Positions 1,377-16,916 of a DNA stretch of 64,000 bases are shown here, in pieces (positions within the stretch are counted from its first letter, which is position 1; each line of letters opens with the position of its first letter). The stretch comes from Pedobacter sp. MC2016-24 (GTDB taxonomy: Bacteria > Bacteroidota > Bacteroidia > Sphingobacteriales > Sphingobacteriaceae): positions 372,001 through 436,000 of the forward strand of contig NZ_JADFBX010000005.1 of NCBI RefSeq assembly GCF_015223055.1. Direction: 5' to 3'. The position numbers and the translations under genes are program-made. Under the pieces are notes generated by a model, which was not told where the DNA came from, did not search any database, and saw only the letters and a list, made by a program, of their open reading frames with translations.

Positions 1377-2309
1377 ATGACCCTGGTTCAATTGGAGTAT
1401 ATCGTCGCTGTAGATACCTACCGAAGCTTTGTTGGCGCTGCAGAAAAGTGTTTTGTTACCCAGCCAACTTTAAGTATGCAGGTACAAAAACTAGAAGAAA
1501 TGCTCAAAGTAAAAATTTTCGACCGCAGCAAACAACCTGTTGTGCCTACCGAAATCGGCTCACAGATCATTGAACAGGCTCGTCTGGTCTTACAGGAAAG
1601 TCATAAAATCAAAGAAATCATCAACAGTCAGCAACAAGAAGTAACCGGCGAACTGAAAGTAGGGATCATTCCTACTGTAGCCCCGTATTTACTCCCTAAA
1701 GTAATTGCAGCGATGATGGAAAAATATCCTGATTTAAAACTCCTCATTTGGGAATACACTACAGAAGATATCATACACCATTTAAAAACTGGGATCCTCG
1801 ACTGTGGTATACTGGCTACTCCGCTGGCAGACAACGCCATTGAAGAAACACCGCTGTATTATGAAAACTTTGTAACCTATATCAGTAAGAATAGCAAGCT
1901 CTATAAGAAAAAAACCATTGATGCTAACGATTTAGAAGATGAGAACATCTGGTTACTTAATGAAGGGCATTGCATGCGCTCACAGGTCCTGAACATCTGC
2001 AGGTCTACTAAAAACAATCGCTTGCAAGGCTTAACCTATAATACCGGAAGTGTAGAAACTCTGATCCGGATGGTGGACATCAATAATGGCGCTACCTTAC
2101 TTCCCGAACTGGCGTTGGAAGAACTCAGCAGTAAGCAGCTCAGTAAAGTAAGATATTTTAAGTCGCCGGAACCTGTTCGTGAAATCAGCCTGGTTACCCA
2201 TAAAAACTTCATCAAAAGAAGAATGCTAAATGCCTTAAAAGAAGAAATTCTGGAGGTGGTGCCAAAAACGATGAAGCAGAAAAAGAAAAAGGATGTCATA
2301 GGAATATAA
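1377..2309 (+). CDS. oxyR: LysR-type peroxide sensor OxyR
   Basis: A 310-residue LysR-family regulator. The N-terminal winged helix-turn-helix (about 1-60) is followed by the substrate-binding-like effector domain. Residues 194-210 read LNEGHCMRSQVLNICRS, placing cysteines at exactly 199 and 208, the numbers of the peroxide-reactive pair of E. coli OxyR that forms the activating disulfide. This supports a true OxyR rather than a generic LysR protein. Likely targets are peroxide-defence genes; the window carries a superoxide dismutase and a peroxiredoxin operon, but I saw no proof of binding sites there. Only 11 bases separate it from the following 7TM gene, so the two may be cotranscribed. 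Confidence 0.9.
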   Translation: MTLVQLEYIVAVDTYRSFVGAAEKCFVTQPTLSMQVQKLEEMLKVKIFDRSKQPVVPTEIGSQIIEQARLVLQESHKIKEIINSQQQEVTGELKVGIIPTVAPYLLPKVIAAMMEKYPDLKLLIWEYTTEDIIHHLKTGILDCGILATPLADNAIEETPLYYENFVTYISKNSKLYKKKTIDANDLEDENIWLLNEGHCMRSQVLNICRSTKNNRLQGLTYNTGSVETLIRMVDINNGATLLPELALEELSSKQLSKVRYFKSPEPVREISLVTHKNFIKRRMLNALKEEILEVVPKTMKQKKKKDVIGI

Positions 2310-2320
2310 ATGCGATCCCC

Positions 2321-4234
2321 ATGTCTAACAAATCTAAACCAATCGGCCTGTCCTGCTGGAAATCTATTATAGTTCTGTTTTGCCTGCTGAACACATTGGC
2401 TTCAAAAGCACAGGAGCGGGTTTTACTACAGGACGGGATCAGCAAACATATCTTCATTTATAAGGAAATAGAATCTTTTGTAGACACCACCAACAAGCTT
2501 ACCATCAAAGATGTGATCAAGCCTGCATTTTCTGACAAATTTAAACCCAGTAAAACCTTTACGCCTACCAACTATCAATATCTGCACAATGGCTGGTATA
2601 GAATTAAAATAAACCATAGCCAGGCCGTAAAAAATAGCTGGATCCTAGAATTTTTTGACCAGACCATAGAGGAAATACATTTTTACACCCCCGATCATCA
2701 GGGAGCATACTCGCAACAGAGCTTTGGTGCGGCTAGACCATTTGACCAAAGATTTTATTTCCATAAAAACTTTGCATTGAACTTGGATACCGCATTTAAA
2801 GGCGACCGTATTTATTACTTTTCAGTCAAATCAAGTCACCCGTCCAATGTGATGGTTGTCCTTAAACCTGTAGTATCCTATTTTAAATATGCGTTAAAGG
2901 AATATTACCTATTTGGAATATACTACGGCATGATCCTGATCTTTAGTCTGTACAATTTCATGATGTTTCTTGCGGTTAAACAAAAGCAATATATCTATTA
3001 CATCATCTACAATTTAAGCATAGGGATGTTTGAAATGAGTTCTAACGGAATTGCCTATCAATACCTATGGCCCGATTCTCCGGAATGGAATGGAATTGCC
3101 TTTGGGGTGATGCTTTACCTGGCCAGCATTTCTTCCATGCTGTTTACCCGTGAGTTTTTATACACCAAGACAAAAGCCCCAACTCTAAATAAACTGATCC
3201 TTGTAGCAATTGGTATCAGGACACTGTTTTTTGGGGCATGTTTATTCATAGACGAACAGTTATTTAACTACAAATATATTGAGATTATTCCGCTCGTCAT
3301 CTGCTATTTTACCGGTTGGTACGTATATAAAAAAGGTTACCGCCCGGCAAGGTTTTTCGTTGCTGGTTACACATTCCTGGTTTTGGGCGTACTGATTAGG
3401 GTCGTAAAAACAGTTTACCCCTATAATCTTCCTTTTGGACCAGCAAACTTTTATAGCCTTAGTTTTTGCTTTATCATGGAAATGCTATTTGTTTCGTTCG
3501 CCATTAGTGACAAGGTGCGTCTGCTAAAAAAGAAAAAGGACAAAGCCCAATCGCGTATGTTCCAGGAAATAAAGCTAAATCAGCTCTTAAAGGACAATCA
3601 GAATAAAGAGCTGGAAAAACAGGTATTGCTAAGAACCAAAGAGGTGATCGCGCAATCCGAGATCATTAAATCTCAAAACGAAGAGTTACTTAATATGAAT
3701 GAGTTACTCAATCTTAAAGCAGAAGAGATCAATAAAATAAATGAATTTCTAAAAAGAGATAACATCGAGCTGCAAACAGACATTGAAAAAGTAAGCCAAG
3801 CTAGGGTAATGTCTAAAGAAGTTGATTTCACCGAGTTTAGTAAAATATATCCAGATAACAACGCCTGTTTTAAATTCCTTGCAGAACTGAAGTGGAATGA
3901 TCAATATCAATGTCGAAAATGCGGTAATGTGCATTATTTTGAAGGCATTTCGCCTCATAGCAGAAGATGCTCTAAATGTGGCTATGATGAATCTGTAACA
4001 ACGAATACGATCTTCCACAACAGCAAAATCCCCATCAATAAAGCATTCTATATCATCTTCTTAATGTATTCCAGCAATGGAAAAATCTCTTCTTACAAAC
4101 TATCCGAAATTCTTTCCATGCGCCAAGGAACCTGCTGGGCCTATAGCAACAAAGTCAAAAAAATAATGGACGAGCGGAAGAAAGAGCTGAAAAATGCCGG
4201 AGAAAAGGGATGGAGCAAGCTCGTTCTGTTGTAA
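2321..4234 (+). CDS. 7TM-DISM membrane sensor fused to IS1595-type transposase zinc-ribbon/HTH domain
   Basis: 637 residues. A signal peptide ends near AQ at 30-31. Residues about 45-185 form a DISMED2-like periplasmic domain, a family predicted to be a carbohydrate-binding jelly roll. Residues about 190-395 contain seven hydrophobic segments (7TMR-DISM_7TM). A charged coiled coil spans about 400-500. The C terminus (about 503-637) matches the N-terminal part of IS1595-family transposases: a zinc ribbon with cysteines 531, 534, 550 and 553, the TTNTIFHNSKIPINKAFY stretch, and a helix-turn-helix with KLSEILSMRQGTCW. The DDE-type catalytic domain is absent, so it is not a transposase. I infer a membrane-tethered DNA-binding regulator. 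It lies between oxyR and the PUL, 242 bases before the GH2 gene. Confidence 0.85.
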   Translation: MSNKSKPIGLSCWKSIIVLFCLLNTLASKAQERVLLQDGISKHIFIYKEIESFVDTTNKLTIKDVIKPAFSDKFKPSKTFTPTNYQYLHNGWYRIKINHSQAVKNSWILEFFDQTIEEIHFYTPDHQGAYSQQSFGAARPFDQRFYFHKNFALNLDTAFKGDRIYYFSVKSSHPSNVMVVLKPVVSYFKYALKEYYLFGIYYGMILIFSLYNFMMFLAVKQKQYIYYIIYNLSIGMFEMSSNGIAYQYLWPDSPEWNGIAFGVMLYLASISSMLFTREFLYTKTKAPTLNKLILVAIGIRTLFFGACLFIDEQLFNYKYIEIIPLVICYFTGWYVYKKGYRPARFFVAGYTFLVLGVLIRVVKTVYPYNLPFGPANFYSLSFCFIMEMLFVSFAISDKVRLLKKKKDKAQSRMFQEIKLNQLLKDNQNKELEKQVLLRTKEVIAQSEIIKSQNEELLNMNELLNLKAEEINKINEFLKRDNIELQTDIEKVSQARVMSKEVDFTEFSKIYPDNNACFKFLAELKWNDQYQCRKCGNVHYFEGISPHSRRCSKCGYDESVTTNTIFHNSKIPINKAFYIIFLMYSSNGKISSYKLSEILSMRQGTCWAYSNKVKKIMDERKKELKNAGEKGWSKLVLL

Positions 4235-4365
4235 GTCCTATTTTTTTTAAAATTTATTGATGTGTATTAAAGTCAAATGTTACGATTTGGCAAAAGGGCG
4301 TTTTGCGCCTGTATATCAGCCTAAAAGCGCAACTGTCTTAATGCCACCAAAGCGTCTTAAACAAC

Positions 4366-4396
4366 CTGCAACTATCTATAAATTAGAATGTTGCAG
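4366..4396 (+). promoter_or_regulatory. inverted repeat upstream of the PUL promoter
   Basis: CTGCAAC at 4366-4372 and GTTGCAG at 4390-4396 form a 7-bp perfect inverted repeat with a 17-base spacer, ending nine bases before the proposed -33 element. The position suits an activator-binding site for the PUL. The rest of the 4235-4476 gap holds a T-run after the stop codon and a weak GGCG/CGCC hairpin, with nothing else I recognise. Confidence 0.35.
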
Positions 4397-4405
4397 CAAA
4401 ATAAA

Positions 4406-4438
4406 CTTGTTTTATTAGCGCACAGTATCATACATTTG
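4406..4438 (+). promoter_or_regulatory. promoter of the polysaccharide utilisation locus
   Basis: TACATTTG at 4431-4438 is an exact TAnnTTTG -7 box. A CTTG at 4406-4409, 21 bases upstream, can serve as the -33 element. Transcription would begin near 4445, giving a leader of about 32 bases before the GH2 start. Confidence 0.6.
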
Positions 4439-4439
4439 T

Positions 4440-4462
4440 ACAAATAACCAAATACAAACCAC
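4440..4462 (+). repeat. leader sequence copy 1 (before GH2 gene)
   Basis: ACAAATAACCAAATA followed by CAAACCAC. The first 15 bases are identical to 7574-7588 before susC, and the next eight match at six positions. It falls in the predicted 5' untranslated region of the PUL transcript. Confidence 0.5.
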
Positions 4463-4476
4463 CACATTATCATTTC

Positions 4477-6321
4477 ATGAAACGGAAATCCTCATCAGCA
4501 TTAGTCTTTGGCCTGCTTCTATTTTTCACCATTTCCAAAGTACAAGCCCAAAACGATTTGATTACCAACACAGCCGCACGTCAGTCTTTGAGTTTAAATG
4601 GAAAATGGGAATACATTATTGATCCATACGAAACCGGTTTCTATGACTACCGGTTTAAGGAACGGGCGGCGGGCGACCGGGAAGCCTACTGGAATTCGGA
4701 CGTACCGGATAACAAACTAGATCGTAAGGAGCACGGCTACATTTCAAAGTATAGCATCAATGTTCCTGGCGACTGGAATTCGCAGGATCCCAAGTTTAAA
4801 TATTATGAAGGAACTGTTTGGTATAAAAAATCTTTTGATTTTAAAAAGAAAAACCCATCAGATAAGCTGTTCCTCTATTTTGGAGCAGTAAACTACAGAA
4901 CCGATGTATATTTGAATGGAAAGAAACTGGGTAGCCATAAAGGCGGTTTTACCCCATTTAATTTTGAAATTCCGGATTCTGCTTTAAAGGACGAAGCAAA
5001 CTTCTTAATCGTCAAGGTCGACAATAAGCGCTATGCTGATGAAATACCAACGCTAAATACAGATTGGTGGAATTACGGTGGTATCACACGTGATGTACTC
5101 CTCATCAGCCTTCCAAAAGCATATATCAAGGATTATGTGATCCAACTCAACCCAAAAAATCCTGCAGGCAATGAGGTTTTAGGGAATGTGAAATTTGATG
5201 GCCCGGTAGCAGACAAAATGGTAAGTATAGAAATTCCGGAACTTAAGCTCAAAAAGCAATTTAAAGTCATCGGGAATGAAGCTAAAATCAATTTTACCCT
5301 TCCCAAATTCCAGCGCTGGTCGCCAGAAATGCCAAAACTATATGAAGTTATAGTTTCTTGCCAAACTGATCAGGTAAAAGAAAAAATCGGTTTCCGCAGT
5401 ATCAAAACCGAGGGGATTCAATTGATCTTAAATGATAAACCTATCTTTCTAAGAGGCATCAGTATTCATAGTGAAATCCCTCAGGAATCCAGAAGGGCCT
5501 ATAGCCAGAAAGACGCGGAGCAATTGCTCGGCTGGGCTAAAGAATTAGGTTGTAACATGGTTCGCCTGGCACATTATCCCCATGATGAAAAAATGACCAG
5601 ATTAGCAGATTCCCTAGGTTTAATGGTATGGTCAGAGATTCCTGTATACTGGACCATAAACTTTAGCAGTCAGAAAGTGTTGCAAAAAGCAAAGAAACAA
5701 CTGGATGAAATGATCACCAGAGACCATAACCGGGCCAGCGTTATCATCTGGTCGGTAGGAAATGAAACACCGGTTAGTGAAACCAGGACAAACTTCATGA
5801 AATCCTTATTAGCAACAGCCAAAAAGGATGATCCAACCCGCCTTGTAGCGGCTGCCCTGGAAGTGAATTACCATTCCGCTGAAAACCTGAGAACAATTGA
5901 TGATCCGCTTGGAGAATTTGTTGACATTGTGGCTTTTAACCAATACCTGGGCTGGTATGGCGGCACACCCGAAAGCTGCAGGGAAGCAAATTGGGCAACA
6001 AAATACAAGAAACCCTTATTTATTAGCGAAACGGGCGCTGAAGCTCTGGGCGGTTACCATGGTGATCGTACAACCTTGTGGACCGAAGAGTTTCAAGAGT
6101 GGTTTTATCAGGAGCAGATCGCTATGCTGAAGCGTATGCCTGCCAATTTTGTGGGTATCTCGCCCTGGATCCTGGCCGACTTCCGTTCACCGAGAAGAAA
6201 CAATCCAACCTATCAGGACGGCTGGAACAACAAAGGCTTCATCGACCAAAATGGCAGGAAAAAGAAATCCTTTTTCATCTTAAAAGAGTATTACAAAGAA
6301 ATCCAGCAAACACAAAAATAA
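4477..6321 (+). CDS. secreted glycoside hydrolase family 2 enzyme
   Basis: 614 residues with a signal peptide ending near VQAQ (22-25). The order is the GH2 type: an N-terminal sugar-binding jelly roll (about 35-215, with WYKKSF and the NTDWWNYGGITRDV patch), an immunoglobulin-like sandwich (about 215-310), then a TIM barrel. The acid/base is Glu430 in SVGNE and the nucleophile Glu518 in FISETG. GH2 covers beta-galactosidase, beta-glucuronidase, beta-mannosidase and others, and the sequence alone does not settle which. It is the first gene of the PUL and is followed after two bases by the GH5 gene, so its product probably trims beta-linked side groups or oligosaccharides in the periplasm. Confidence 0.9.
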   Translation: MKRKSSSALVFGLLLFFTISKVQAQNDLITNTAARQSLSLNGKWEYIIDPYETGFYDYRFKERAAGDREAYWNSDVPDNKLDRKEHGYISKYSINVPGDWNSQDPKFKYYEGTVWYKKSFDFKKKNPSDKLFLYFGAVNYRTDVYLNGKKLGSHKGGFTPFNFEIPDSALKDEANFLIVKVDNKRYADEIPTLNTDWWNYGGITRDVLLISLPKAYIKDYVIQLNPKNPAGNEVLGNVKFDGPVADKMVSIEIPELKLKKQFKVIGNEAKINFTLPKFQRWSPEMPKLYEVIVSCQTDQVKEKIGFRSIKTEGIQLILNDKPIFLRGISIHSEIPQESRRAYSQKDAEQLLGWAKELGCNMVRLAHYPHDEKMTRLADSLGLMVWSEIPVYWTINFSSQKVLQKAKKQLDEMITRDHNRASVIIWSVGNETPVSETRTNFMKSLLATAKKDDPTRLVAAALEVNYHSAENLRTIDDPLGEFVDIVAFNQYLGWYGGTPESCREANWATKYKKPLFISETGAEALGGYHGDRTTLWTEEFQEWFYQEQIAMLKRMPANFVGISPWILADFRSPRRNNPTYQDGWNNKGFIDQNGRKKKSFFILKEYYKEIQQTQK

Positions 6322-6323
6322 AT

Positions 6324-7556
6324 ATGAACAGATTAATCATACCATTTCTACTACTACTCCTACTGACCAGCTTTAACCAAAAAACACTTGCCCAAAGCAA
6401 GGGCTTTTTCAAGACCAACAAGGAAGAAATTATTGGTCCGGACGGCAAACCATTCCTCATCAAAGGAACCAATCTGGGCAACTGGTTGGTTCCCGAAGGT
6501 TATATGTTTAAATTTAAAAACACAAACTCCCCGGCAAAAATCCATGAAACAATTGCTCAGCTCATCGGTCCAGAACCAGCTAAAGAATTCTGGAAAAAAT
6601 ATTTGAACAATTACGTTACTGAAGCAGATATCCGGTACCTAAAAAAAATCGGTGTGAATTCCATCAGAGTGCCCTTCAATTACCGTCTTTTCAGCAATGA
6701 AGAATACCTGGGAGAAAACAATGCTACCAGGGGTATGGAATTACTTGACAGGGTCATTAAATGGTGTAAAAACGAAGGTTTATTTGTCATCCTTGATATG
6801 CATTGTGCACCAGGTGGTCAAACAGGGGATAACATAGACGATAGCTACGGATACCCGTTCCTTTTTGAAAACCAGGCAAATCAGCAACTCACCATTGACA
6901 TCTGGAAGAAAATCGCTACACGTTATAAAAATGAACAGACCGTAATGGGTTATGACCTATTAAATGAGCCGATCGCCCATTATTTCAATGCTGACTCTTT
7001 AGATCACCTGCTGCTCCCACTATACAAGAAAATCGTGAAAGAAATCAGAAGCATCGATAAAAATCACATCATCTTCCTGGGCGGTGCACAATGGAATACG
7101 AACTTCAAAGTATTCAACGATTTTTTTGATTCCAATATCGTTTACACTTTTCACAAATATGGCGATCAACCTTCATTGGGCAGCATCAAAAGATTCATTG
7201 AATTTAGAGCGAAGCAAAAAGTGCCGATATATATAGGCGAAACTGGCGAAAATACAGACGAGTGGATAAAAGAGTTCAGAACAGTACTTGAAAACAACAA
7301 CATCGGCTGGCACTTTTGGCCCTATAAAAAAATGGACAGTCCGAAAAATATCGCCTCGATTGTTCCGCCTCAAAATTACAACCTGCTGATTGATTACGCA
7401 GAAGCGCCAAAAAACAGTTACAAAGAAATTCGCGAAATCAAAGTTGACCGGATCAAAATCAAGCAAGTACTCAGCGACTTCCTGGAAGCCTGTAAGTTTG
7501 AGCGATGCCAATTTAACAAAGGCTACATCACAGCACTTGGGCTTCATGCCGGCTAA
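6324..7556 (+). CDS. secreted glycoside hydrolase family 5, exo-beta-1,3-glucanase-like
   Basis: 410 residues with a signal peptide (about 1-24, ending LAQ). GTNLGNWLVPEGYM at 48-61 resembles the start of the catalytic domain in fungal exo-beta-1,3-glucanases (Exg1-like GH5). Catalytic residues are Glu215 in LLNEP (acid/base) and Glu306 in IGETGE (nucleophile). The frame is open upstream to 6078, but that part only shadows the GH2 gene, and ATG 6324 begins a clean signal peptide two bases after the GH2 stop. The C-terminal 45 residues extend past the barrel. Cleavage of beta-1,3- or beta-1,6-linked glucan is the best guess; other GH5 specificities are possible. Confidence 0.85.
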   Translation: MNRLIIPFLLLLLLTSFNQKTLAQSKGFFKTNKEEIIGPDGKPFLIKGTNLGNWLVPEGYMFKFKNTNSPAKIHETIAQLIGPEPAKEFWKKYLNNYVTEADIRYLKKIGVNSIRVPFNYRLFSNEEYLGENNATRGMELLDRVIKWCKNEGLFVILDMHCAPGGQTGDNIDDSYGYPFLFENQANQQLTIDIWKKIATRYKNEQTVMGYDLLNEPIAHYFNADSLDHLLLPLYKKIVKEIRSIDKNHIIFLGGAQWNTNFKVFNDFFDSNIVYTFHKYGDQPSLGSIKRFIEFRAKQKVPIYIGETGENTDEWIKEFRTVLENNNIGWHFWPYKKMDSPKNIASIVPPQNYNLLIDYAEAPKNSYKEIREIKVDRIKIKQVLSDFLEACKFERCQFNKGYITALGLHAG

Positions 7557-7610: not shown

Positions 7611-10600
7611 ATGAAGAGAATTAGACTAATGCAATTATGCAGTCTCTTGATGATCTTTTATTTGTGCCTATCAACTGCGCTGGTGTCCGCGCAGGAGAAC
7701 CGTACCATTAAAGGTGTTGTAAAAGGTTCAGATGACAATCTGCCACTACCTGGTGTTGCCGTGTCTGCTGTCGGAGTTCCGGGTAATGGCACTACTACAG
7801 ATCAAAACGGGCAATTCCAAATCACGGTTAGCAAATCCGTAAGTGCTTTGCTTTTCAGAAGTATCGGAATGAATTCCAAAGAAGTATCGATACAAAATAA
7901 CCAAACACTCGAGGTAAGCCTTAGCCCAGCTACACAATCCTTAAATGACGTAGTTGTTGTTGGATATGGCACTCAGAAAAAAAGTCTAGTAACCGGAGCA
8001 ATAAGCTCAATCAGTACAAAAGATCTGGAAGTTGCTGGCTTAATGCGTGCAGATCAGGCGCTGCAGGGGAAAGCCGCAGGTGTAAGTGTAATGATGAATA
8101 GTGGGCAGCCAGGCGCGGGCGTCAGTATCCGGATCAGGGGGATTGGCACCAACGGTTCAAATGATCCGCTTTACATCGTAGACGGTTATCCTGCCGGGGA
8201 CCTGGAGTCAATCAACCCCAAAGATATAGAAACCATGGAAGTGCTTAAAGATGCCGCTTCAGCTGCAATCTATGGCGCAAGAGGCGCAAACGGAGTGGTG
8301 ATCGTGACTACAAAAAGAGGTAAAAACGGGCAGTACAAAGTAAATTACGACTACTATTATGGAATCCAGAACGTAAGAAAGTATATCGATGTGCTTGATG
8401 CCACACAATATGCCAGAATTCAAAATGAAGCTTATTTCAACTCCAACTTACCGCTGCCGTTCTCCATTGATGAAATTTCAAAAATGGGCGCTGGTACCAA
8501 TTGGCAAGATGAAGTAAGTTATCACAATGCACCTATACAAAGTCATCAGGCAAGCTTATCCGGAGGTTCTGATCGTTCTACATTCAACACTTCATTTTCT
8601 TATTTCAGTCAGGATGGAACATTGGCTAAAGGAAAATCAAAATTTGACCGCTATACAGGTCGCGTCAATACCGAACAAAAATACCTGGATGGCATGCTGA
8701 CAACCGGGGTAAACCTCAGTTTTACCAATGTAAAAAGAGCATCAATCACCTCAAACTCGGGAAATGCAGGCCCGATCTTAAGTGCAATCAACATGGATCC
8801 AGTTACCCCGGTTATGAAAGATGATGGCACATTCGCCATTTCCAGATATGTATCTCAGGAGATCGTAAACCCTGTTGCCAGAATATATTACTCAAACGGA
8901 ACGTCAGGGTACACCCGTTTAATCGGAAATGCCTTTGGAGAACTCAGTATCCTAAAAAACTTAAAACTTCGGAGCACCTTAGGTTACACTTTCCAATACG
9001 ATCAGGGAGACAACTACATTCCCATATATTACCTCAATTCAACCAATTTTACACTGGCATCTGGAACCAGCAAAACTTCGGCTGAAAATAAATACCTGAA
9101 TTTTGAGAATACCCTTACGTATAACGAAACCATTCAAAAAAACAGTTTCTCACTCCTTATTGGAAACACCATTAACAAAGGCCAGGGAAGTAATATTTCA
9201 GCCTCAAAAAACGGTCTTTTATACGATGATCCCGCTTATGCTTATCTTGACCTCGCCAAAGACAACTTAAGTGCCTCAGCTTCAGGTGGAGCATTTCATA
9301 GTGCCTTCCTCTCGTATTTTGGCAGATTAAACTATGATTACGATGGCAGGTTTATGGCCACAGCAACATTTAGAGCAGATGGCTCGTTCAGGTTTGGACC
9401 AAATAATAAATTTGGTTACTTCCCATCCATCTCAGCCGGATGGAACATTTCCAAAGAACATTTTATGGAAAATCAACAGTGGATAAACAACTTAAAATTA
9501 AGAGCCAGTTGGGGTCAGACGGGAAATGACAGGATAGATGATTATAAATTTGTATCTACCATCAGTACCTATGCGCGCAATTACTACTGGGGGCCCAACA
9601 CCCAAATGATTGGCGCCTCGCCAAACGGTGTTTCCAATAACGATTTGAAGTGGGAAACATCAGAACAAACAAACATTGGTTTTGATGCTGATTTTTTAAG
9701 CGATTTCAATGCAACATTCGATTGGTACTCAAAGAAAACCAAGGATTTGTTACTCACCATTCCCATCCCATTATATGTGGGTAATGGTGCGCCGACAGGC
9801 AACGCGGGAAATGTAGTCAATAAGGGTGTTGAACTGACATTGGGCTATAAAAAAGATTTTGGCAAACTCAATGTAAGCCTGAATGTAAATGGCGCCTACA
9901 ACTACAACAAGGTAACTTTTGTAGGCAATGCAACTGGTTTTATTCCTGGTAGTGATGCCAGTAATCAAATGCAAGGAGTAACACGTATGGAGGCTGGATA
10001 TCCGATCGGGTACTTCTGGTTATATACTATGGATGGTATTTTCCAGAATCAATCGGAAGTCAGTCAGCATGTAGGACCAAATGGAAATAAAATACAACCC
10101 AATGCAGTTCCCGGAGACATTCGCTACAAAGACCTGAACGGTGATGGCATCATTGACAACAGAGACCGCTCTAATGTGGGCAGTCCGCATCCAAAATACA
10201 ATTATGGATTTAACCTCAGTATGCGCTATGCCAATTTCGACCTGAATGTTTTCTTCAATGGCTTAGCCGGAAACAAAATCTTCAATAGTTTACACCGATG
10301 GGATCTGCCTACGGCCAATTATCCTGTTGCCGTTTTAAACAGATGGCACGGTGAGGGGACATCAAATACCTTCCCAAGAGTATCCGCAGGAGATGCCAAT
10401 GGCAATTTCACCAACCCATCTGACTTTTTCCTTGAAGATGGAAGCTACCTGCGTTTAAAAAACCTCTCTTTGGGTTATACCATCAAGGGCTTATCTAAAT
10501 ACAAAATCAATAATCTCCGTTTATATGCCACAGGCACAAATTTATTTGTCCTTACCAAATACACCGGTTTTGACCCCGAAGTTTCCGGATCAGCTTTAGG

Positions 10601-10670
10601 CTTAGGTATAGACCGCGGGGTTTATCCACAGCCAAGAACATTCATTTTCGGCGCAAGCATTGGATTTTAA
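7611..10670 (+). CDS. SusC/RagA-type TonB-dependent outer membrane transporter
   Basis: 1019 residues. A signal peptide (ending about VSAQ, 28) is followed by a carboxypeptidase-D-like regulatory domain (about 32-110), the family's VVVVGYGTQKKSLVTGAIS entry to the plug domain (about 118-230, with the LYIVDGYPAG motif), then a large 22-strand barrel ending in the aromatic GASIGF. It imports oligosaccharides across the outer membrane with energy from TonB. The susD gene follows after 12 bases, and the two products form a lidded transporter. The substrate here is inferred from neighbouring GH5 and GH128 genes to be beta-glucan oligosaccharides. Confidence 0.96.
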   Translation: MKRIRLMQLCSLLMIFYLCLSTALVSAQENRTIKGVVKGSDDNLPLPGVAVSAVGVPGNGTTTDQNGQFQITVSKSVSALLFRSIGMNSKEVSIQNNQTLEVSLSPATQSLNDVVVVGYGTQKKSLVTGAISSISTKDLEVAGLMRADQALQGKAAGVSVMMNSGQPGAGVSIRIRGIGTNGSNDPLYIVDGYPAGDLESINPKDIETMEVLKDAASAAIYGARGANGVVIVTTKRGKNGQYKVNYDYYYGIQNVRKYIDVLDATQYARIQNEAYFNSNLPLPFSIDEISKMGAGTNWQDEVSYHNAPIQSHQASLSGGSDRSTFNTSFSYFSQDGTLAKGKSKFDRYTGRVNTEQKYLDGMLTTGVNLSFTNVKRASITSNSGNAGPILSAINMDPVTPVMKDDGTFAISRYVSQEIVNPVARIYYSNGTSGYTRLIGNAFGELSILKNLKLRSTLGYTFQYDQGDNYIPIYYLNSTNFTLASGTSKTSAENKYLNFENTLTYNETIQKNSFSLLIGNTINKGQGSNISASKNGLLYDDPAYAYLDLAKDNLSASASGGAFHSAFLSYFGRLNYDYDGRFMATATFRADGSFRFGPNNKFGYFPSISAGWNISKEHFMENQQWINNLKLRASWGQTGNDRIDDYKFVSTISTYARNYYWGPNTQMIGASPNGVSNNDLKWETSEQTNIGFDADFLSDFNATFDWYSKKTKDLLLTIPIPLYVGNGAPTGNAGNVVNKGVELTLGYKKDFGKLNVSLNVNGAYNYNKVTFVGNATGFIPGSDASNQMQGVTRMEAGYPIGYFWLYTMDGIFQNQSEVSQHVGPNGNKIQPNAVPGDIRYKDLNGDGIIDNRDRSNVGSPHPKYNYGFNLSMRYANFDLNVFFNGLAGNKIFNSLHRWDLPTANYPVAVLNRWHGEGTSNTFPRVSAGDANGNFTNPSDFFLEDGSYLRLKNLSLGYTIKGLSKYKINNLRLYATGTNLFVLTKYTGFDPEVSGSALGLGIDRGVYPQPRTFIFGASIGF

Positions 10671-10682
10671 CAATAAACAGAT

Positions 10683-12239
10683 ATGAACAGATATATAAAA
10701 GTAACTGCATTTTTATGGATACTAAGTTCAGTATCATGCAGTAAACAACTTGATTTAAAGCCCATCACAAGCGATGTGGAAACAAACTTCTATAAAGATC
10801 AGAAAGACTGCCTGCAGGGTTTGGTTGCAGCCTATAACGTTTTGCTATGGGATGCACCCCAGAATCAAAATGCCCCATTTCAATTGATCAGTGAAGTACT
10901 GGGAGATCATTGCTTTACCGGTGGCGCTTCCGTAACGGATTTGCCATCTGTGGCCAGAATAGACAAGGCAGAGATTCGGCCTGACGACCTTGGACCAAAA
11001 GCCCTTTGGTATAAATACTACACCGGAATTTACCGTTGCAACCTGCTTCTTGAAAAAATGCCCGATGCCACTTTTGATACACCTGGCCTTAGGGAGCGGT
11101 TTACCGCAGAATGCAAATTTTTGCGAGCCTATTATTATTTTGACCTTGTACGCCTTTTTGGCAACGTACCGCTCATTCTTAAAACCCTGTCCGCTTCAGA
11201 ATACAACCAAAAGCAAAGTAATCCAGAAGCGGTATACACCCAGATTTCGGCAGACCTGACAGCAGCGATCGATGTACTACCAGCTTATAAAAACATGCCC
11301 GCAACCGAACTCGGCAGGGTAACTGCTGATGCGGCAAGGGGCTTGCTAATGCGCGCCTGGTTATATTACACAGGCTATTATAAAAAGTCAGAATTGCCAG
11401 GTGTAAATGCACAAAAGATCCTTGAAATTAGCGAAACATTGATCAACAATAGCGGACATGACTTACTCAGCAATTTTGGAGATGTCTTTACGCCAATCCC
11501 TCCTTTCAACAACAACAACAAGGAATCTGTTTTTGAAATTCAGTATTCCAGTCTTGCCTACAGCGGAAACTTCAGTTATCGCGAAGAAGCCAATGGCAAC
11601 CTTAGCGTAATGCTTTGGTCGATGCGCGACCCCAACTCTGCTTCTCCGTATGCAGCAGGCTGGTCTTTTGCTCCAATTGACCAGACATTTTACAATCAGT
11701 TTGACAATACAGACTTACGCAAGGCTGCGACTTTCCTGCTCCCTAAAACACAATCAGTCTCCTTTACCCAAGGTTATCAGAACACCGATATTTTTCCTCA
11801 GAAATGGGTAGCCCTTAAAGTAAACAACTCCCCGAAGGGAAATGTAGGTTTGAATTATCCGAATCACTTTATTTCCATACGGTTTTCAGATGTGCTGCTC
11901 ATGGCCGCCGAATTGCAGCTCTTACATGGCGGCTCCGCTGCCAAGGCCCAACAATACTTTGAAAGAGTAGCCAAACGCGCCAGACCTGCCGGATATACGC
12001 CGCCCACCGTATCTTTGGACGTAATTTACAATGAACGGGACCTCGAACTGGCACTTGAAGGTGTTCGTTACTGGGATTTGATGCGAAGAGGCATAGACTA
12101 TGCCGCCAGTAAAATTAACATCAACAGAGCTGAGCCTTTCGTAAGCAAATTTAACACGGCAGCTGCCGGATTATTTCCAATCCCCGATTCAGAGATTATT
12201 CTATCTAAAAACACCCTAGTTCAAAACCCTGGCTATTAA
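10683..12239 (+). CDS. SusD/RagB-family glycan-binding lipoprotein
   Basis: 518 residues with a lipobox at SSVSC (Cys19). It has SusD-like helical TPR architecture, including LRAYYYFDLVRLFGNVPLI near 150 and the C-terminal NERDLELALEGVRYWDLMRRG stretch near 450, typical of the SusD_RagB domain. It acts as the hinged surface lid over the SusC barrel and captures oligosaccharides. It directly follows susC, and the PKD lipoprotein gene begins four bases after its stop. Confidence 0.95.
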   Translation: MNRYIKVTAFLWILSSVSCSKQLDLKPITSDVETNFYKDQKDCLQGLVAAYNVLLWDAPQNQNAPFQLISEVLGDHCFTGGASVTDLPSVARIDKAEIRPDDLGPKALWYKYYTGIYRCNLLLEKMPDATFDTPGLRERFTAECKFLRAYYYFDLVRLFGNVPLILKTLSASEYNQKQSNPEAVYTQISADLTAAIDVLPAYKNMPATELGRVTADAARGLLMRAWLYYTGYYKKSELPGVNAQKILEISETLINNSGHDLLSNFGDVFTPIPPFNNNNKESVFEIQYSSLAYSGNFSYREEANGNLSVMLWSMRDPNSASPYAAGWSFAPIDQTFYNQFDNTDLRKAATFLLPKTQSVSFTQGYQNTDIFPQKWVALKVNNSPKGNVGLNYPNHFISIRFSDVLLMAAELQLLHGGSAAKAQQYFERVAKRARPAGYTPPTVSLDVIYNERDLELALEGVRYWDLMRRGIDYAASKININRAEPFVSKFNTAAAGLFPIPDSEIILSKNTLVQNPGY

Positions 12240-12243
12240 CCTC

Positions 12244-13176
12244 ATGGATATTCTAAACCTAACTCAGATGAGATACATCATACTAGCGGCTATGGCATCG
12301 ATCATTTGCTTATCGTGTACAAAAAAGCCTGGTCTTGAGGATCCAATTCCTTCAGATGAAGTCAATATCATCGTGCAAAAAACGGACACCTTAAACGTAT
12401 ATCGTTTCATCAATGCAAAAATAGGGAAAACAGCTACCGCACGCTGGGACCTTGGCAACAATCAAAAGGCAGTTGGCGATACTGTAATTGGCCGTTATCC
12501 TTTTAAAGGGAATTATACGGTGACCTTATCCGTTTTCAATGGATTAACTGCGGTAGACAAATCCGTACTGGTTTCATTCAACCAGGATAATATCAATCTG
12601 GATCCCGTCTATGGCTTTCTTACCGGCGGACTTAGTGTTACCGCAGGAAAAACCTGGGTACTTGACTCGCTGACGGATGGGCATGTCAGACTGATCAATT
12701 CTGGTTCTAACACCCCATGGAATAAGCTGTCAAAAACCGGGAAGGGCGTATACGACGATGAACTGAACTTTAAGCTCGCCGGATATGAATGTACCTATAA
12801 CAACCACAACACCTCGTATGTACATGGGGGAACCATAGATGGAATTACCCAGTTTCGTTTAAAAGAGCTTAATGCCAACTGGGGAACGGCAACCAATCCT
12901 ACTGCAGACGGAGGCGATTTGATGATCAATTACACGCCATCAAAACCCGTTCAAAAATGGACTATGGAAATCAGAAATGGCAAACATTACCTTAGGCTTT
13001 ACAACGGCGCTTTCTTCTTTTTTTACCGGGGCTGTTCAGATGTCATTGAATACGAGATCAGTTCAATTTCTGAAAATGAAATGACGGTAACCCATACAGA
13101 AACCCTACCAGCTTCCAGGGTAGCAAGTGCCTGGAGAGATGTCTATTTATTAATCCGTAAAGGTTACGTAAGATAA
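12244..13176 (+). CDS. PKD-domain lipoprotein, probable surface glycan-binding protein
   Basis: 310 residues from the first ATG. A second in-frame ATG at 12268 gives a tidier lipoprotein signal (MRYIILAAMASIICLSC) and may be the true start. After the lipidated cysteine comes a PKD-like immunoglobulin fold (about 55-118, with WDLGNN and GNYTVTLSVFNG), then a roughly 185-residue C-terminal part rich in Trp and Tyr that I do not recognise. In PULs this position after susD is normally filled by a SusE/SusF-type or other surface glycan-binding protein, so carbohydrate binding is inferred. The next gene starts five bases downstream. Confidence 0.7.
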   Translation: MDILNLTQMRYIILAAMASIICLSCTKKPGLEDPIPSDEVNIIVQKTDTLNVYRFINAKIGKTATARWDLGNNQKAVGDTVIGRYPFKGNYTVTLSVFNGLTAVDKSVLVSFNQDNINLDPVYGFLTGGLSVTAGKTWVLDSLTDGHVRLINSGSNTPWNKLSKTGKGVYDDELNFKLAGYECTYNNHNTSYVHGGTIDGITQFRLKELNANWGTATNPTADGGDLMINYTPSKPVQKWTMEIRNGKHYLRLYNGAFFFFYRGCSDVIEYEISSISENEMTVTHTETLPASRVASAWRDVYLLIRKGYVR

Positions 13177-13181
13177 ACACA

Positions 13182-16004
13182 ATGAAAAGAAAACATTTTT
13201 TTATAAAGGTCATTTGCCTGGGTATCCTGGCAATGACCATACTCCAGGCCTGTAAAAAAGACAATGATCAACCCAAATCATTGCCGGATCGCATGGAGAT
13301 CATCGACACAAAATCAACCATTGACGGAAACCTGGTAGAAAGTTTAGCCCTAAATGCCAACAATACTTTCACCTTGTCTTTCAAAAATGCACCGACGGGG
13401 ACATCGGCCGTCATAAGTGCAGAAGCCGTAAACGGTATTTCCATTCCTGAAAGCACCGTGGAACTCAATGGCACGACCAGCGTAACTGTGCCCCTCAATG
13501 GCAAGCCGGGTACAGACGGAACTTTTGTCCTGGTCGTAAATGTCAAGGTTAACGGTACCACTTATGTTTGCAGTAAAGAATTCTATGTCGATTTGGCCAC
13601 GGTGACAGCCATAGAATTCCCTTTGGCAGAAACCCCAATATTCAATGTAAACAAGGTAACTGATATTGATTTTGACATTTACCCAAAATCTACTGCATTT
13701 ACCATCGTCACAGCACCGAATTTAACGGCAGAAATCATCAATGTGTCAGCGACCAAAAGAACGCTGAGGATCACACCAAATGGGCAGTTTACTACGGGCA
13801 CAGTAGCGGTTACAGCTAATTTCATGGCCATCACACCAGTTACCCGAACCATCAGTTGTAATGCATTTGCTGCGGGTTCTGGAACTGTAGCAGCACCATT
13901 CGAAATACCGGATGCTGATCGCATGAACAGAATTGCTTCCGCTTTAACCAGCAATTTTAAATTAACCAATGATTTTACACAAATCACTGCAACCACTTCA
14001 GGAAGCACCTTTAGCGGGACTGTTGATGGCAACGGCAAAACCATTACCGGTCTTATGCTGACCTCTATTACAGATAAATCAGGACTATTTGCTGAACTTG
14101 GCGAAAGTGCTTCCATTAAGAACCTGATCCTCAAAAATGTGAATATAAGCGGTCAGAATAATACGGCGGCACTAACTGGTGTCAACCGCGGCAGTGTAAG
14201 TAATGTAACGGTTAGCGGAACAGTTAGCGGCGGCTTGTTTGTCGGTGGCATTTCCGGAAACAATTATGGTTCCATTACCACATCTGATGTAAGCGGACTA
14301 AACATAAAAGGGCTGAACAACATCGGCTCCTTAACGGGAGGTGTCAATTCTGGATCAACACAAACTTCCAACGTTACTTTGCTACTCCCAGAAACCTTCC
14401 CGACGGAAGTGTATGGCATTGCATCGGCTAAAACCGCTGACTTTACTTTCGCACCTTCTGATGGTACAATTGCCGTTCTGACTACGCCTGCCTTGTTAAC
14501 TGCAAGCCCTGTAGCCGGGCAACAAAAGCTAAACTTAACACCACAGGCTGGATTTTTAAGTGGGGATCTACAAATATCCATGCAAAAAAATAATTTATCA
14601 GCCATCAGAACCGTTAAAATATTCTCGAAGCAGGCAGGTTCGTTTTTTGACGGTGGAGACGGATCTGTAGTTAGTCCATATATTATTTCTAACGAGTCGG
14701 CACTGGATTATGTCAGAAATGATGGCACTAAAAATTATAAAATCGTAGCAAACATCACTTTAACTAAAGTGTGGACACCCATACCGGCGTTCAGTGGAAC
14801 CCTGGATGGCGGGAAATTTAAAGTGACAGGTTTAACCATCAATTCAACTCTTGCCAATGATGGCTTCATCAATACCAATACCGGCACAATCAAAGACATC
14901 CAATTCCTGAATGTCGATTGCAAAACCGGTGCAGCATTTGGGGTAGTCACAGGTAAAAATGCTGGTGGAACCATTCAAAATGTAGTGGTTACCGGCGCTG
15001 TCCTTTCTACCAATACCGGTGATCTTTTGGGTGGCATTACTGGCGAAATATCTGCAGGTGGTAAAATTACACAGTGTTATACCAATCTTAACATGTCTGC
15101 CTCCTGTGGAATGGTTGGCGGAATTGCAGGCAGATTAACGACCTCCACCGGAGCAATCACAGAAATTTCTTATTGTACCAGCACTGGAAACATCGAAATC
15201 ACGGCTTCTAAAAATCGGATTGGAGGTATATTAGGCCGAGCAGAAGGAACGGTATCCGGGGGTATCATTAAAAATTGCCTTTCGACCATAAACATTACGA
15301 CCACAACAGCTGCATCAACTACAGTAAATGGCGTCGGTGGTATCTTTGGTGCAGATCAGAATGCCAACATTGTCCCTATCGATCAATGTATGTTTAGCGG
15401 ATCGATAACTGCAGGTTTCTCCATTGGGGGTATCGCTGGCGTAGGATCCTCGATTACCAATTGTATGGTAAAAGGTAAAGGTCCATTAGCTGCCCAGCCG
15501 ATGTTAAGCGCTACAAGTACAACACCTGCAACAGGAAACATCGGCGGTATTGCTGGAACCAACAAAACCAGACTGGAAAACTGCGTGGTTAGAGAAGCGA
15601 CCATTAAATCGGTGATTACGCCAGCAAGCCTGCCAAATGGCGGTATTACAAGCACTTATCAAAACAATGGATACACGAGGAACAGTTTCATTGCAAATAC
15701 TTCTATCGAAGGTTCAAACTCCGCACCAAACTGGGACAATAATTTTCGGATTTCAGGAACGCCTGCTAATGGAAACGGAGCTAATGGCAACAACTATGTA
15801 GGCACAGGAGTAAGCATTGCGGGACGTACAAGCACCATTGGTGATGATCAGAACGGTTTAGATGGGCAGGTGAAAACCCAGGCACAACTTACACAGAGCT
15901 TTTTTCAGGGTATTGGTTACGATTTTGCAATCTGGAAGATAGATACAGATGGCTATCTGTCCTTAAGAAACGTCGGTTATAACGGTAGCCTTCCAACACC
16001 ATAA
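13182..16004 (+). CDS. large lipoprotein with GLUG-type repeats
   Basis: 940 residues with a lipobox ending in Cys24 (TILQAC). The first ~230 residues look like tandem beta-sandwich domains. Two regions (about 270-400 and 520-780) carry short Gly-rich repeats of the GLUG kind, for example GLFAELGESASIKNLILKNV and VGGISGNNYGSI, suggesting a right-handed beta-helix. Composition is rich in Thr, Gly, Asn and Ser, as in secreted adhesins. Its place in the PUL between a PKD lipoprotein and GH128 suggests a surface protein that binds or scaffolds insoluble glycan. No catalytic signature was found, though beta-helix lyases cannot be excluded. Confidence 0.7.
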   Translation: MKRKHFFIKVICLGILAMTILQACKKDNDQPKSLPDRMEIIDTKSTIDGNLVESLALNANNTFTLSFKNAPTGTSAVISAEAVNGISIPESTVELNGTTSVTVPLNGKPGTDGTFVLVVNVKVNGTTYVCSKEFYVDLATVTAIEFPLAETPIFNVNKVTDIDFDIYPKSTAFTIVTAPNLTAEIINVSATKRTLRITPNGQFTTGTVAVTANFMAITPVTRTISCNAFAAGSGTVAAPFEIPDADRMNRIASALTSNFKLTNDFTQITATTSGSTFSGTVDGNGKTITGLMLTSITDKSGLFAELGESASIKNLILKNVNISGQNNTAALTGVNRGSVSNVTVSGTVSGGLFVGGISGNNYGSITTSDVSGLNIKGLNNIGSLTGGVNSGSTQTSNVTLLLPETFPTEVYGIASAKTADFTFAPSDGTIAVLTTPALLTASPVAGQQKLNLTPQAGFLSGDLQISMQKNNLSAIRTVKIFSKQAGSFFDGGDGSVVSPYIISNESALDYVRNDGTKNYKIVANITLTKVWTPIPAFSGTLDGGKFKVTGLTINSTLANDGFINTNTGTIKDIQFLNVDCKTGAAFGVVTGKNAGGTIQNVVVTGAVLSTNTGDLLGGITGEISAGGKITQCYTNLNMSASCGMVGGIAGRLTTSTGAITEISYCTSTGNIEITASKNRIGGILGRAEGTVSGGIIKNCLSTINITTTTAASTTVNGVGGIFGADQNANIVPIDQCMFSGSITAGFSIGGIAGVGSSITNCMVKGKGPLAAQPMLSATSTTPATGNIGGIAGTNKTRLENCVVREATIKSVITPASLPNGGITSTYQNNGYTRNSFIANTSIEGSNSAPNWDNNFRISGTPANGNGANGNNYVGTGVSIAGRTSTIGDDQNGLDGQVKTQAQLTQSFFQGIGYDFAIWKIDTDGYLSLRNVGYNGSLPTP

Positions 16005-16037: not shown

Positions 16038-16916
16038 ATGATTAAGATTTTAAACCTGTTCTTTATCGGTTGCTGTTCAGTCCTGCTGGGCTGCTCAAAA
16101 AGCAATGTATATGTACCAACAAAAGCCGTATCAGGCAATTATACCGCCAAAGGCAAAAAAGGCGCAGATTTCAGCACCAATAACAAAAATGGGACCTGGT
16201 GGGGCAATACCATTTCCCTGCAAAGTCATTGGTTTTATACCTGGGGCACATCAGTCCCATTTGAGCTGGTGCCACAAAATGCTGAATTTGTCCCGATGTT
16301 TTGGAGTAAAGCCAATGTAACAGATGCAAACATTGCCTATGTAAAGCAGTTAAAAGATCAGGGAAGAGCCAAATATATCCTTGGTTTCAATGAACCCGAT
16401 CTGGCCGACCAGTCCAACATGACCGTACAAGATGCCCTGGCTTTATGGCCACAACTGGAAACCATTGGATTGCCCCTAGGCAGCCCGGCAGCTTCCTGGC
16501 CAACCAGACAATGGATTTATGACTTTATGGATCAAGCCATTGCTCAAAAAAGGCGGGTTGATTTTATCTGTGTGCACATGTATGTCGGTACTGATGATGT
16601 TGCTTTCATAAACGTATTACAGGATTTATACAACAAATACCATAAACCCATCTGGATTACTGAGTTTGCAACGGTGGCTGATAAAGCCACAACTATGGCC
16701 GAAAATCCTTATACACCAGATATGGTTTTAGGCTTTATGCAGCGCTTGCTGCCCAAACTCGAAGCGCTTGATTTTGTACAGCGATATTCCTGGTTCTCGG
16801 GCTCCCCAACCAGCGCACGCCTATGGCCCTCAGCTTTGATTGATGCCAATGGCAATTTAACCAAGCTTGGAAAATGGTATTCAGAATTTACGCCCAATAC
16901 GGAAATCAAAAGATAG
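16038..16916 (+). CDS. lipoprotein glycoside hydrolase of the GH128 type (beta-1,3-glucanase-like)
   Basis: 292 residues with a lipobox at LLGC (Cys19). The body matches the Asl1-like glycosyl hydrolase catalytic core used by GH128 endo-beta-1,3-glucanases. The likely acid/base is Glu119 in ILGFNEPD and the nucleophile Glu209 in IWITEFA; conserved aromatics include W54-W55, W89 and W252. It closes the PUL 33 bases after the GLUG protein gene. This enzyme is the strongest indication that the locus handles beta-1,3-glucan such as laminarin, curdlan or fungal wall glucan. Confidence 0.82.
   Translation: MIKILNLFFIGCCSVLLGCSKSNVYVPTKAVSGNYTAKGKKGADFSTNNKNGTWWGNTISLQSHWFYTWGTSVPFELVPQNAEFVPMFWSKANVTDANIAYVKQLKDQGRAKYILGFNEPDLADQSNMTVQDALALWPQLETIGLPLGSPAASWPTRQWIYDFMDQAIAQKRRVDFICVHMYVGTDDVAFINVLQDLYNKYHKPIWITEFATVADKATTMAENPYTPDMVLGFMQRLLPKLEALDFVQRYSWFSGSPTSARLWPSALIDANGNLTKLGKWYSEFTPNTEIKR

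Follow-up and report, generated by a model that had tools for sequence, protein, structure and literature searches.

Relation to described regulators

SusR is a membrane protein with a periplasmic sensor and a cytoplasmic DNA-binding domain (DBD) that activates the sus genes (PMC3878776, accessible part). The same partial text gives the predicted operators of SusR-like proteins as direct repeats with a spacing of 67 or 77 bp, each bound by dimers along a single DNA face, and reports no significant similarity of the SusR DBD to the DBDs of other known transcription factors; the accessible part of PMC11633381 contains nothing on this DBD. HTCS are PUL-linked membrane regulators as well (PUL, polysaccharide utilization locus), also with predicted direct-repeat operators (PMC3878776, accessible part).

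Here, we analyse a gene in the window (the whole stretch of DNA studied, 64,000 nucleotides) whose product joins a 7TMR-DISM receptor to an IS1595-type zinc ribbon and HTH. With good probability it controls transcription of the adjacent PUL as a membrane-anchored one-component regulator, working like SusR. Its domain order would fit the sensor, anchor and DBD of SusR-like proteins (SusR, BT3705) in one chain, given the predicted topology and presumed DNA binding, and the long-spaced direct-repeat operator recurs in the fusion family, the distal copy in the window being degenerate. By description, the 7TMR-DISM receptor and the IS1595 ribbon-HTH set the fusion apart from SusR. It differs from HTCS, which combine kinase, receiver and AraC-type domains and whose predicted tandem sites have a mean distance of 21 bp (PMC3878776, accessible part). 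It shares with IS1595 transposases a zinc ribbon followed by an HTH, but is without their catalytic domain, and no framing inverted repeats were found. RetS-like 7TMR-DISM receptors have the same DISMED2 and 7TM domains, whereas the output of the fusion is the ribbon-HTH and that of the five other 7TMR-DISM proteins of its own genome is a kinase. The first description of 7TMR-DISM reportedly dates from a 2003 paper. One such protein has been reported with a GGDEF output (PMC5342196, accessible part), and 7TMR-DISM is one of the domains named alongside the ChiS-family DBD in the Fig. 5 legend of PMC8092284. In the accessible part of the latter paper the ChiS-family proteins have this other DBD and belong to proteobacterial genomes, whereas the fusions carry a transposase ribbon and lie in PULs.

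The sequence-only reading had suggested a novel kind of one-component regulator. The regulator is supported by the PUL neighbourhood and by a tandem operator-like repeat; the novelty has to be narrowed, as membrane PUL regulators such as the membrane-anchored SusR (PMC3878776), 7TMR-DISM receptors and 7TMR-DISM with another DBD, of the ChiS family (PMC8092284), are already known from the accessible parts of these papers. In the literature searched, with preprints and most subscription journals outside its scope, no description of a 7TMR-DISM/IS1595-ribbon fusion or of its role in PULs was found; within these bounds, the IS1595 ribbon-HTH on a 7TMR-DISM receptor, with its proposed role and candidate operator, appears to be new. 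We lean towards regarding the fusions as a further main class of PUL regulator in Bacteroidota, the fourth after the SusR-like, HTCS and ECF/anti-sigma classes, namely a seven-helix receptor that would bind promoter DNA via an insertion-sequence module, present in several families and with a tandem operator of constant core and varying spacing and edge bases. PUL control sets which glycans soil and host-associated Bacteroidota consume. A widespread fusion family would gain a likely function together with an operator and target genes, a membrane receptor would have acquired a transposase DNA-binding module as its output, and the idea is directly testable, with the protein, site, promoter and candidate glycans defined.

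Protein architecture and structure prediction

The fusion gene and the parts of its product lie in the window as follows.

2321..4234, + strand: fusion gene, 637 aa, ATG start, single open frame (ORF, Pfam, NCBIfam)
2465..2863, + strand: periplasmic 7TMR-DISMED2 domain, residues 49–181, RetS-like fold (Pfam, 3.4e-24; AF2 model versus 3jyb)
2900..3514, + strand: 7TMR-DISM_7TM membrane domain, residues 194–398 (Pfam, 1.4e-42)
3515..3808, + strand: long helix, coiled-coil-like, residues 399–496 (AF2 helix; coiled coil presumed)
3854..3985, + strand: IS1595-type zinc ribbon, residues 512–555, Cys531/534/550/553 (Pfam, alignment)
4019..4189, + strand: HTH region, residues 567–623, homologous to the beginning of the transposase domain of IS1595 (NCBIfam)

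The sequence-only reading had described an uninterrupted frame with a DISMED2-like periplasmic domain, seven membrane helices, a four-cysteine ribbon and an IS1595-type HTH, the transposase catalytic domain and terminal repeats being absent, and this description was borne out. The frame is intact, and the profile searches proposed with that reading returned both 7TMR-DISM models for the periplasmic and membrane part and Zn_ribbon_IS1595 for residues 512–555 of the C terminus (Pfam; 1e-5), at 25.9 bits just above the cut-off of 25.4. Residues 567–623 match positions 1–58 of 215 of the NCBIfam model transpos_IS1595 (NF033547; 1.8e-6) at 28 bits, which falls under the cut-off of that model (75 bits). 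NF033547 is matched only at these positions, after which the frame ends: the ribbon and HTH are present and the DDE-type catalytic domain is absent. None of the eight inverted repeats in region 1900–4700 forms a convincing framing terminal pair, and no Pfam match to a kinase, receiver or AraC-type HTH was found in the fusion protein up to E 1.

The AF2 model of the fusion protein (58 sequences) has a pLDDT of 81.9. It contains an N-terminal helix at residues 8–28, a candidate signal peptide, and a single long helix (374–496, with low confidence at 461–500) that joins the membrane domain to the ribbon, and its periplasmic part superimposes on the RetS sensor domain (3jyb) with a Z of 15.8 and an r.m.s.d. 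of 2.5 (138 aligned). Prediction of the C terminus alone, also suggested earlier, gave a confident model (pLDDT 88.2) but no significant counterpart in the PDB (best E 0.88, Z 3.9); the weak rows are confined to zinc-ribbon proteins and proteins with an HTH (Lrp, MarR). A sequence search of the PDB with query set A2 gave nothing significant (best E 0.36). Because its predicted fold has no significant PDB match, the identity of the C terminus rests on sequence.

Conservation of the family

The protein is a true fusion and belongs to a conserved family. A second full-length copy in the genome of the window (618 aa, 50% identity) has the whole architecture, and the fusion was present in 36/36 confirmed relatives in a scan of genome contigs; an assembly join of two genes is therefore excluded. 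The fusion of locus L059 is cut by a contig end at residue 612. The hosts of the 36 relatives are Mucilaginibacter, Pedobacter, Olivibacter, three more Bacteroidota MAGs (two of them labelled Cyclobacteriaceae) and one contig labelled Beijerinckiaceae. The last (L060, CAJCIQ010000019.1) holds a fusion–SusC–SusD–GH30 locus with an operator, and is probably a mislabelled Bacteroidota contig.

The C terminus was matched at E 1e-3 in 136 of the 301 genomes of the window's family, with fusions and transposases counted together, and the frames are at least 618 aa long for all 150 C-terminal matches among those listed in this family. Both 7TMR models of Pfam are matched by 58/58 family members and the ribbon model by 43/58 at E 1e-3. 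Cys531, 534, 550 and 553 are invariant in the 58-member alignment, as are residues of the HTH (e.g. R601, Q602, T604 and W606), and the C terminus ranks among the best conserved parts of the protein.

Genomic neighbourhood

The survey of Bacteroidota genomes that the sequence-only reading had called for placed the fusions, present in all 36 confirmed relatives, beside SusC/SusD and glycoside-hydrolase (GH) genes. A total of 97 fusion loci were collected (the 36 relatives, 60 from further genomes and the window), of which 93 were retained after dropping four with identical fusion C-termini; the neighbouring genes were called with a simple longest-ORF script. SusC/SusD or a GH gene (GH30/5/16/3/2) occurs within five genes in 88/93 distinct loci, and SusC on the same strand is directly next downstream in 48/93 and within five genes downstream in 58/93, loci from close strains of Pedobacter and Mucilaginibacter not being independent in these counts. 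Two of the five loci without SusC, SusD or GH are at contig ends (L044 and L059), and, with the seeds used here, L159, L163 and L168 count as genuine exceptions; in L163 and L168 sites of 19.5 and 16.5 bits, respectively, precede other genes. The gene order of the window (fusion–GH2–GH5–SusC–SusD) was found again in L143 and, in a different family, in L150.

Linkage to SusD alone would be weak evidence because the genome of the window has 132 SusD hits. Each of the two fusions of this genome is followed within 10 kb by a co-oriented SusD hit, and none of its five other 7TMR-DISM genes has a co-oriented SusD within that distance; these five hits, one of them below the family cut-off, carry histidine-kinase outputs.

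In one Pedobacter group (L054, L055, L057 and L058) the fusion is directly preceded by a response-regulator-like gene of 225 aa and a kinase-like one of about 434 aa, both assigned from sequence start and length only. The upstream gene pair has similar lengths in L149, L165–L167 and L172.

Tandem repeat upstream of the target genes

A direct repeat, TGGTATTAAAGCGTATCA in gene direction, precedes the target genes, with copies mostly 78–92 bp apart; it is the core RATACGCTT...A..CC of a 24-column matrix on the strand opposite the target gene. The motif was obtained de novo by EM from the stretches upstream of the first SusC or GH gene. The first search kept 59 of 62 such stretches after thinning, and the final matrix was built from all 62, including the window. 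The log-likelihoods were 426 and 528 (widths 16 and 24, respectively) versus 69–105 in block shuffles, with two or three draws each. Among the 72 loci with a target gene, two sites of at least 10 bits were present in 55, one in nine and none in eight, the last including all three f9 loci. The orientation is shared by 119/122 sites, and the spacing is 76–94 bp (mostly 92, 86, 78 and 90). A 14-bit scan of 1.68 Mb, covering many of the loci that trained the matrix, gave 141 hits, of which 118 are intergenic before SusC or GH30, four precede GH5, two GH2 and two the fusion, with 15 elsewhere. As a held-out test, a matrix was derived de novo using only 14 GH30-type loci; in 35 of the 58 others its single best hit within the entire locus fell in the gap between fusion and target, versus 0.96 expected by area.

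Across the 301 genomes, 58/139 exact tandem pairs have one of the 150 listed fusions no more than 5 kb away. The expected orientation is found in 55 of these 58 and a spacing of 86–92 in 49, whereas the spacings of distant pairs are spread out. There is no exact pair in 35/109 genomes with a listed fusion, and there is one in 35/192 other genomes.

The motif TAnnTTTG, the consensus of the Bacteroidota −7 element (PMC7366714, accessible part), lies between the proximal site and the start codon in 27/64 loci versus 6.8 in shuffles, and 63–67 nt past the proximal site in 19/63. A palindrome, CTGATnATCAG, is conserved between the copies about 34 bp before the start of the proximal site; CTAATTATCA is conserved about 34 bp after it. 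A candidate inverted-repeat operator in the window, TGCAAC-N17-GTTGCA, noticed by eye, was rejected, exact hexamer dyads being common to five loci at most.

Putative promoter elements and presumed target genes in the window

The elements and genes that follow the fusion are listed below.

4252..4275, − strand: distal copy, degenerate at 2.9 bits, located 90 bp before the proximal site (matrix, weak)
4309..4319, strand not applicable: CTGTATATCAG, at the position of the conserved CTGATnATCAG palindrome (sequence)
4342..4365, − strand: proximal operator-like site, 15.7 bits (matrix; window among the 62 training stretches)
4431..4438, + strand: TACATTTG, −7-like element, 65 nt past the proximal site (consensus TAnnTTTG; PMC7366714, accessible part)
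4477..6321, + strand: GH2-type glycoside hydrolase, first presumed target (Pfam)
6348..7556, + strand: GH5-type glycoside hydrolase (frame opens at 6078)
7611..10670, + strand: SusC-like TonB-dependent transporter
10683..12239, + strand: SusD-like protein
12244..13176, + strand: PKD-domain protein, same gene run
16038..16916, + strand: glycosyl hydrolase (Glyco_hydro_cc)

The site at 4342–4365 is the sole hit of at least 14 bits in the 64 kb window, the next best having 11.6 bits. It is a putative, diverged operator, and is read as diverged because the window helped to train the matrix and because the held-out matrix preferred another place (best window hit at 15384, 10.8 bits). At the locus of the paralogue (L146) two sites scoring 19.5 and 19.1 bits lie outside its training stretch with a spacing of 78 bp, and the promoter has TAGCTTTA 65 nt beyond the site.

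A second family

In a second family (f8) the C terminus was matched at 1e-25 in 61/118 genomes; 40 loci were collected and five added (45 in all), in 25 of which SusC is the first gene downstream. The f8 motif was derived by EM with no input from the first motif; of the 30 usable intergenics 25 were taken and those of L227, L229, L239, L240 and L255 omitted. Its core, TGTTATT-AAGCGT-A, reached a log-likelihood of 189 versus 71–82 in shuffles. The best site points in gene direction in 24/25, and its best same-strand partner is 64–66 bp away in 21/24. Core and direct-repeat layout are kept between the families, whereas spacing and edge bases differ; the −7-like TAnnTTTG was seen once in f8. Long-spaced direct repeats may, as this suggests, be a common solution of membrane-anchored PUL regulators.

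Locus L227, from an f8 genome but with the helix of the window's family (IRQSTCWAY), scores 19.9 with the first matrix, versus −2.5 for its genome-mate L228. This contrast between helix and operator hints that the fusion protein reads the repeat, but falls short of proof because L259, with a different helix, scores 19.1 and L236 15.2. In an f8 subtype with the helix RRETCWAF or RRETCWTF (L231, L235, L238, L241, L243, L244, L248 and L250) the next genes are on the opposite strand.

Proposed function and mechanism

Direct switching of the glycan genes from the membrane is probable because the fusions have a PUL neighbourhood and a matching tandem signal stands before those genes. The sequences hold the fusion itself, its conservation, the kinship with IS1595, the link to SusC/SusD and GH genes and the conserved tandem element between regulator and target, and from these we infer glycan sensing, DNA binding and activation. 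The RetS-like domain would detect a glycan fragment, perhaps a beta-glucan oligosaccharide (a guess from the GH30/GH5/GH3/GH16/GH2 neighbours), and the seven-helix domain would hand the signal on to the coiled coil. A dimer could then place two ribbon-HTH modules, from the membrane, on two direct-repeat sites about 65–92 bp apart, and the bound dimer would activate the SusC/GH promoter; in promoters with a visible −7-like element, this element is mostly about 65 nt past the proximal site. The arrangement closely resembles the one predicted for SusR (PMC3878776).

It is unlikely, in our estimate, that another DNA-binding protein reads the tandem repeat and that the fusion signals to this partner by protein contact of its ribbon-HTH. 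The palindrome conserved between the copies shows that the repeat is not the sole element of these promoters and would fit such a partner, as would the response-regulator-like and kinase-like genes directly upstream in one Pedobacter group; yet loci that lack these two genes also have the repeat beside the fusion, as does f8 with a related core, and no other regulator gene is common to the clustered neighbourhoods (37 loci, genes of at least 80 aa). An RNA leader element, or a property of SusC promoters in general that has nothing to do with the fusion, is a highly improbable account of the repeat: the intergenic region of the window folds somewhat better than its shuffles (z −2.42; 3/200 as good), but in loci with a visible −7-like element the sites mostly precede it, and the neighbourhood of the listed fusions shows a strong excess of exact pairs despite the many SusC genes (132 SusD hits in the genome of the window). 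Least credible is a C terminus that serves only dimerization or structure, with no DNA binding, to which the bare passing of the Pfam ribbon cut-off by the window protein would lend itself, against the invariance of the ribbon cysteines and of R601, Q602, T604 and W606 over 58 members and the high conservation of this part.

Origin of the ribbon-HTH module

Besides the fusions, the C-terminal profile retrieves transposases in which the VDE and TDxW motifs are present (e.g. L118, L267 and L269). In a 67-row tree the fusions nest among IS1595 transposases. The branch starred at 100/93 unites them with L080, a free-standing 137-aa module, and joins a clade of L118, L119 and ten G457 proteins at 93/70; a starred 50-row clade encloses all of these together with further transposases. 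Capture of the module from an IS1595-type element is well supported by these relationships. All 28 fusions fall on one side of a branch, and a single capture event is likely, no firmer, because the support of that branch is only 50/2.

Descent of the operator from a transposon end was considered and rejected. In 22 related transposase or ribbon-protein loci the first matrix scored at best 12.0 bits (L123) and at most 9.0 elsewhere. Two 18-column matrices gave no significant match to either end of L267 and L269 (window p about 0.25 to 1), which are ISs of about 965 bp with intact motifs and repeats of about 22 bp. A short likeness noticed by eye between AATAAGGCGT and ATTAAAGCGT was discounted.

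Ribbon-HTH proteins without a complete transposase are encoded at L080 (1194–1607, 137 aa) and L084 (1471–2028, 185 aa). The G457 loci (L100–L109) are ten diverged IS1595-type transposase homologues from one genome, with frames of 306–339 aa; they lack both catalytic Asp positions that are kept in six related transposases and have no common flank beyond about 50 bases (blastn), and look like another domesticated family. The IS1595-ribbon matches in the genome of the window are the two fusions and L002 (C1:884925–885056) only, the last being an IS1595 transposase remnant broken by a stop codon.
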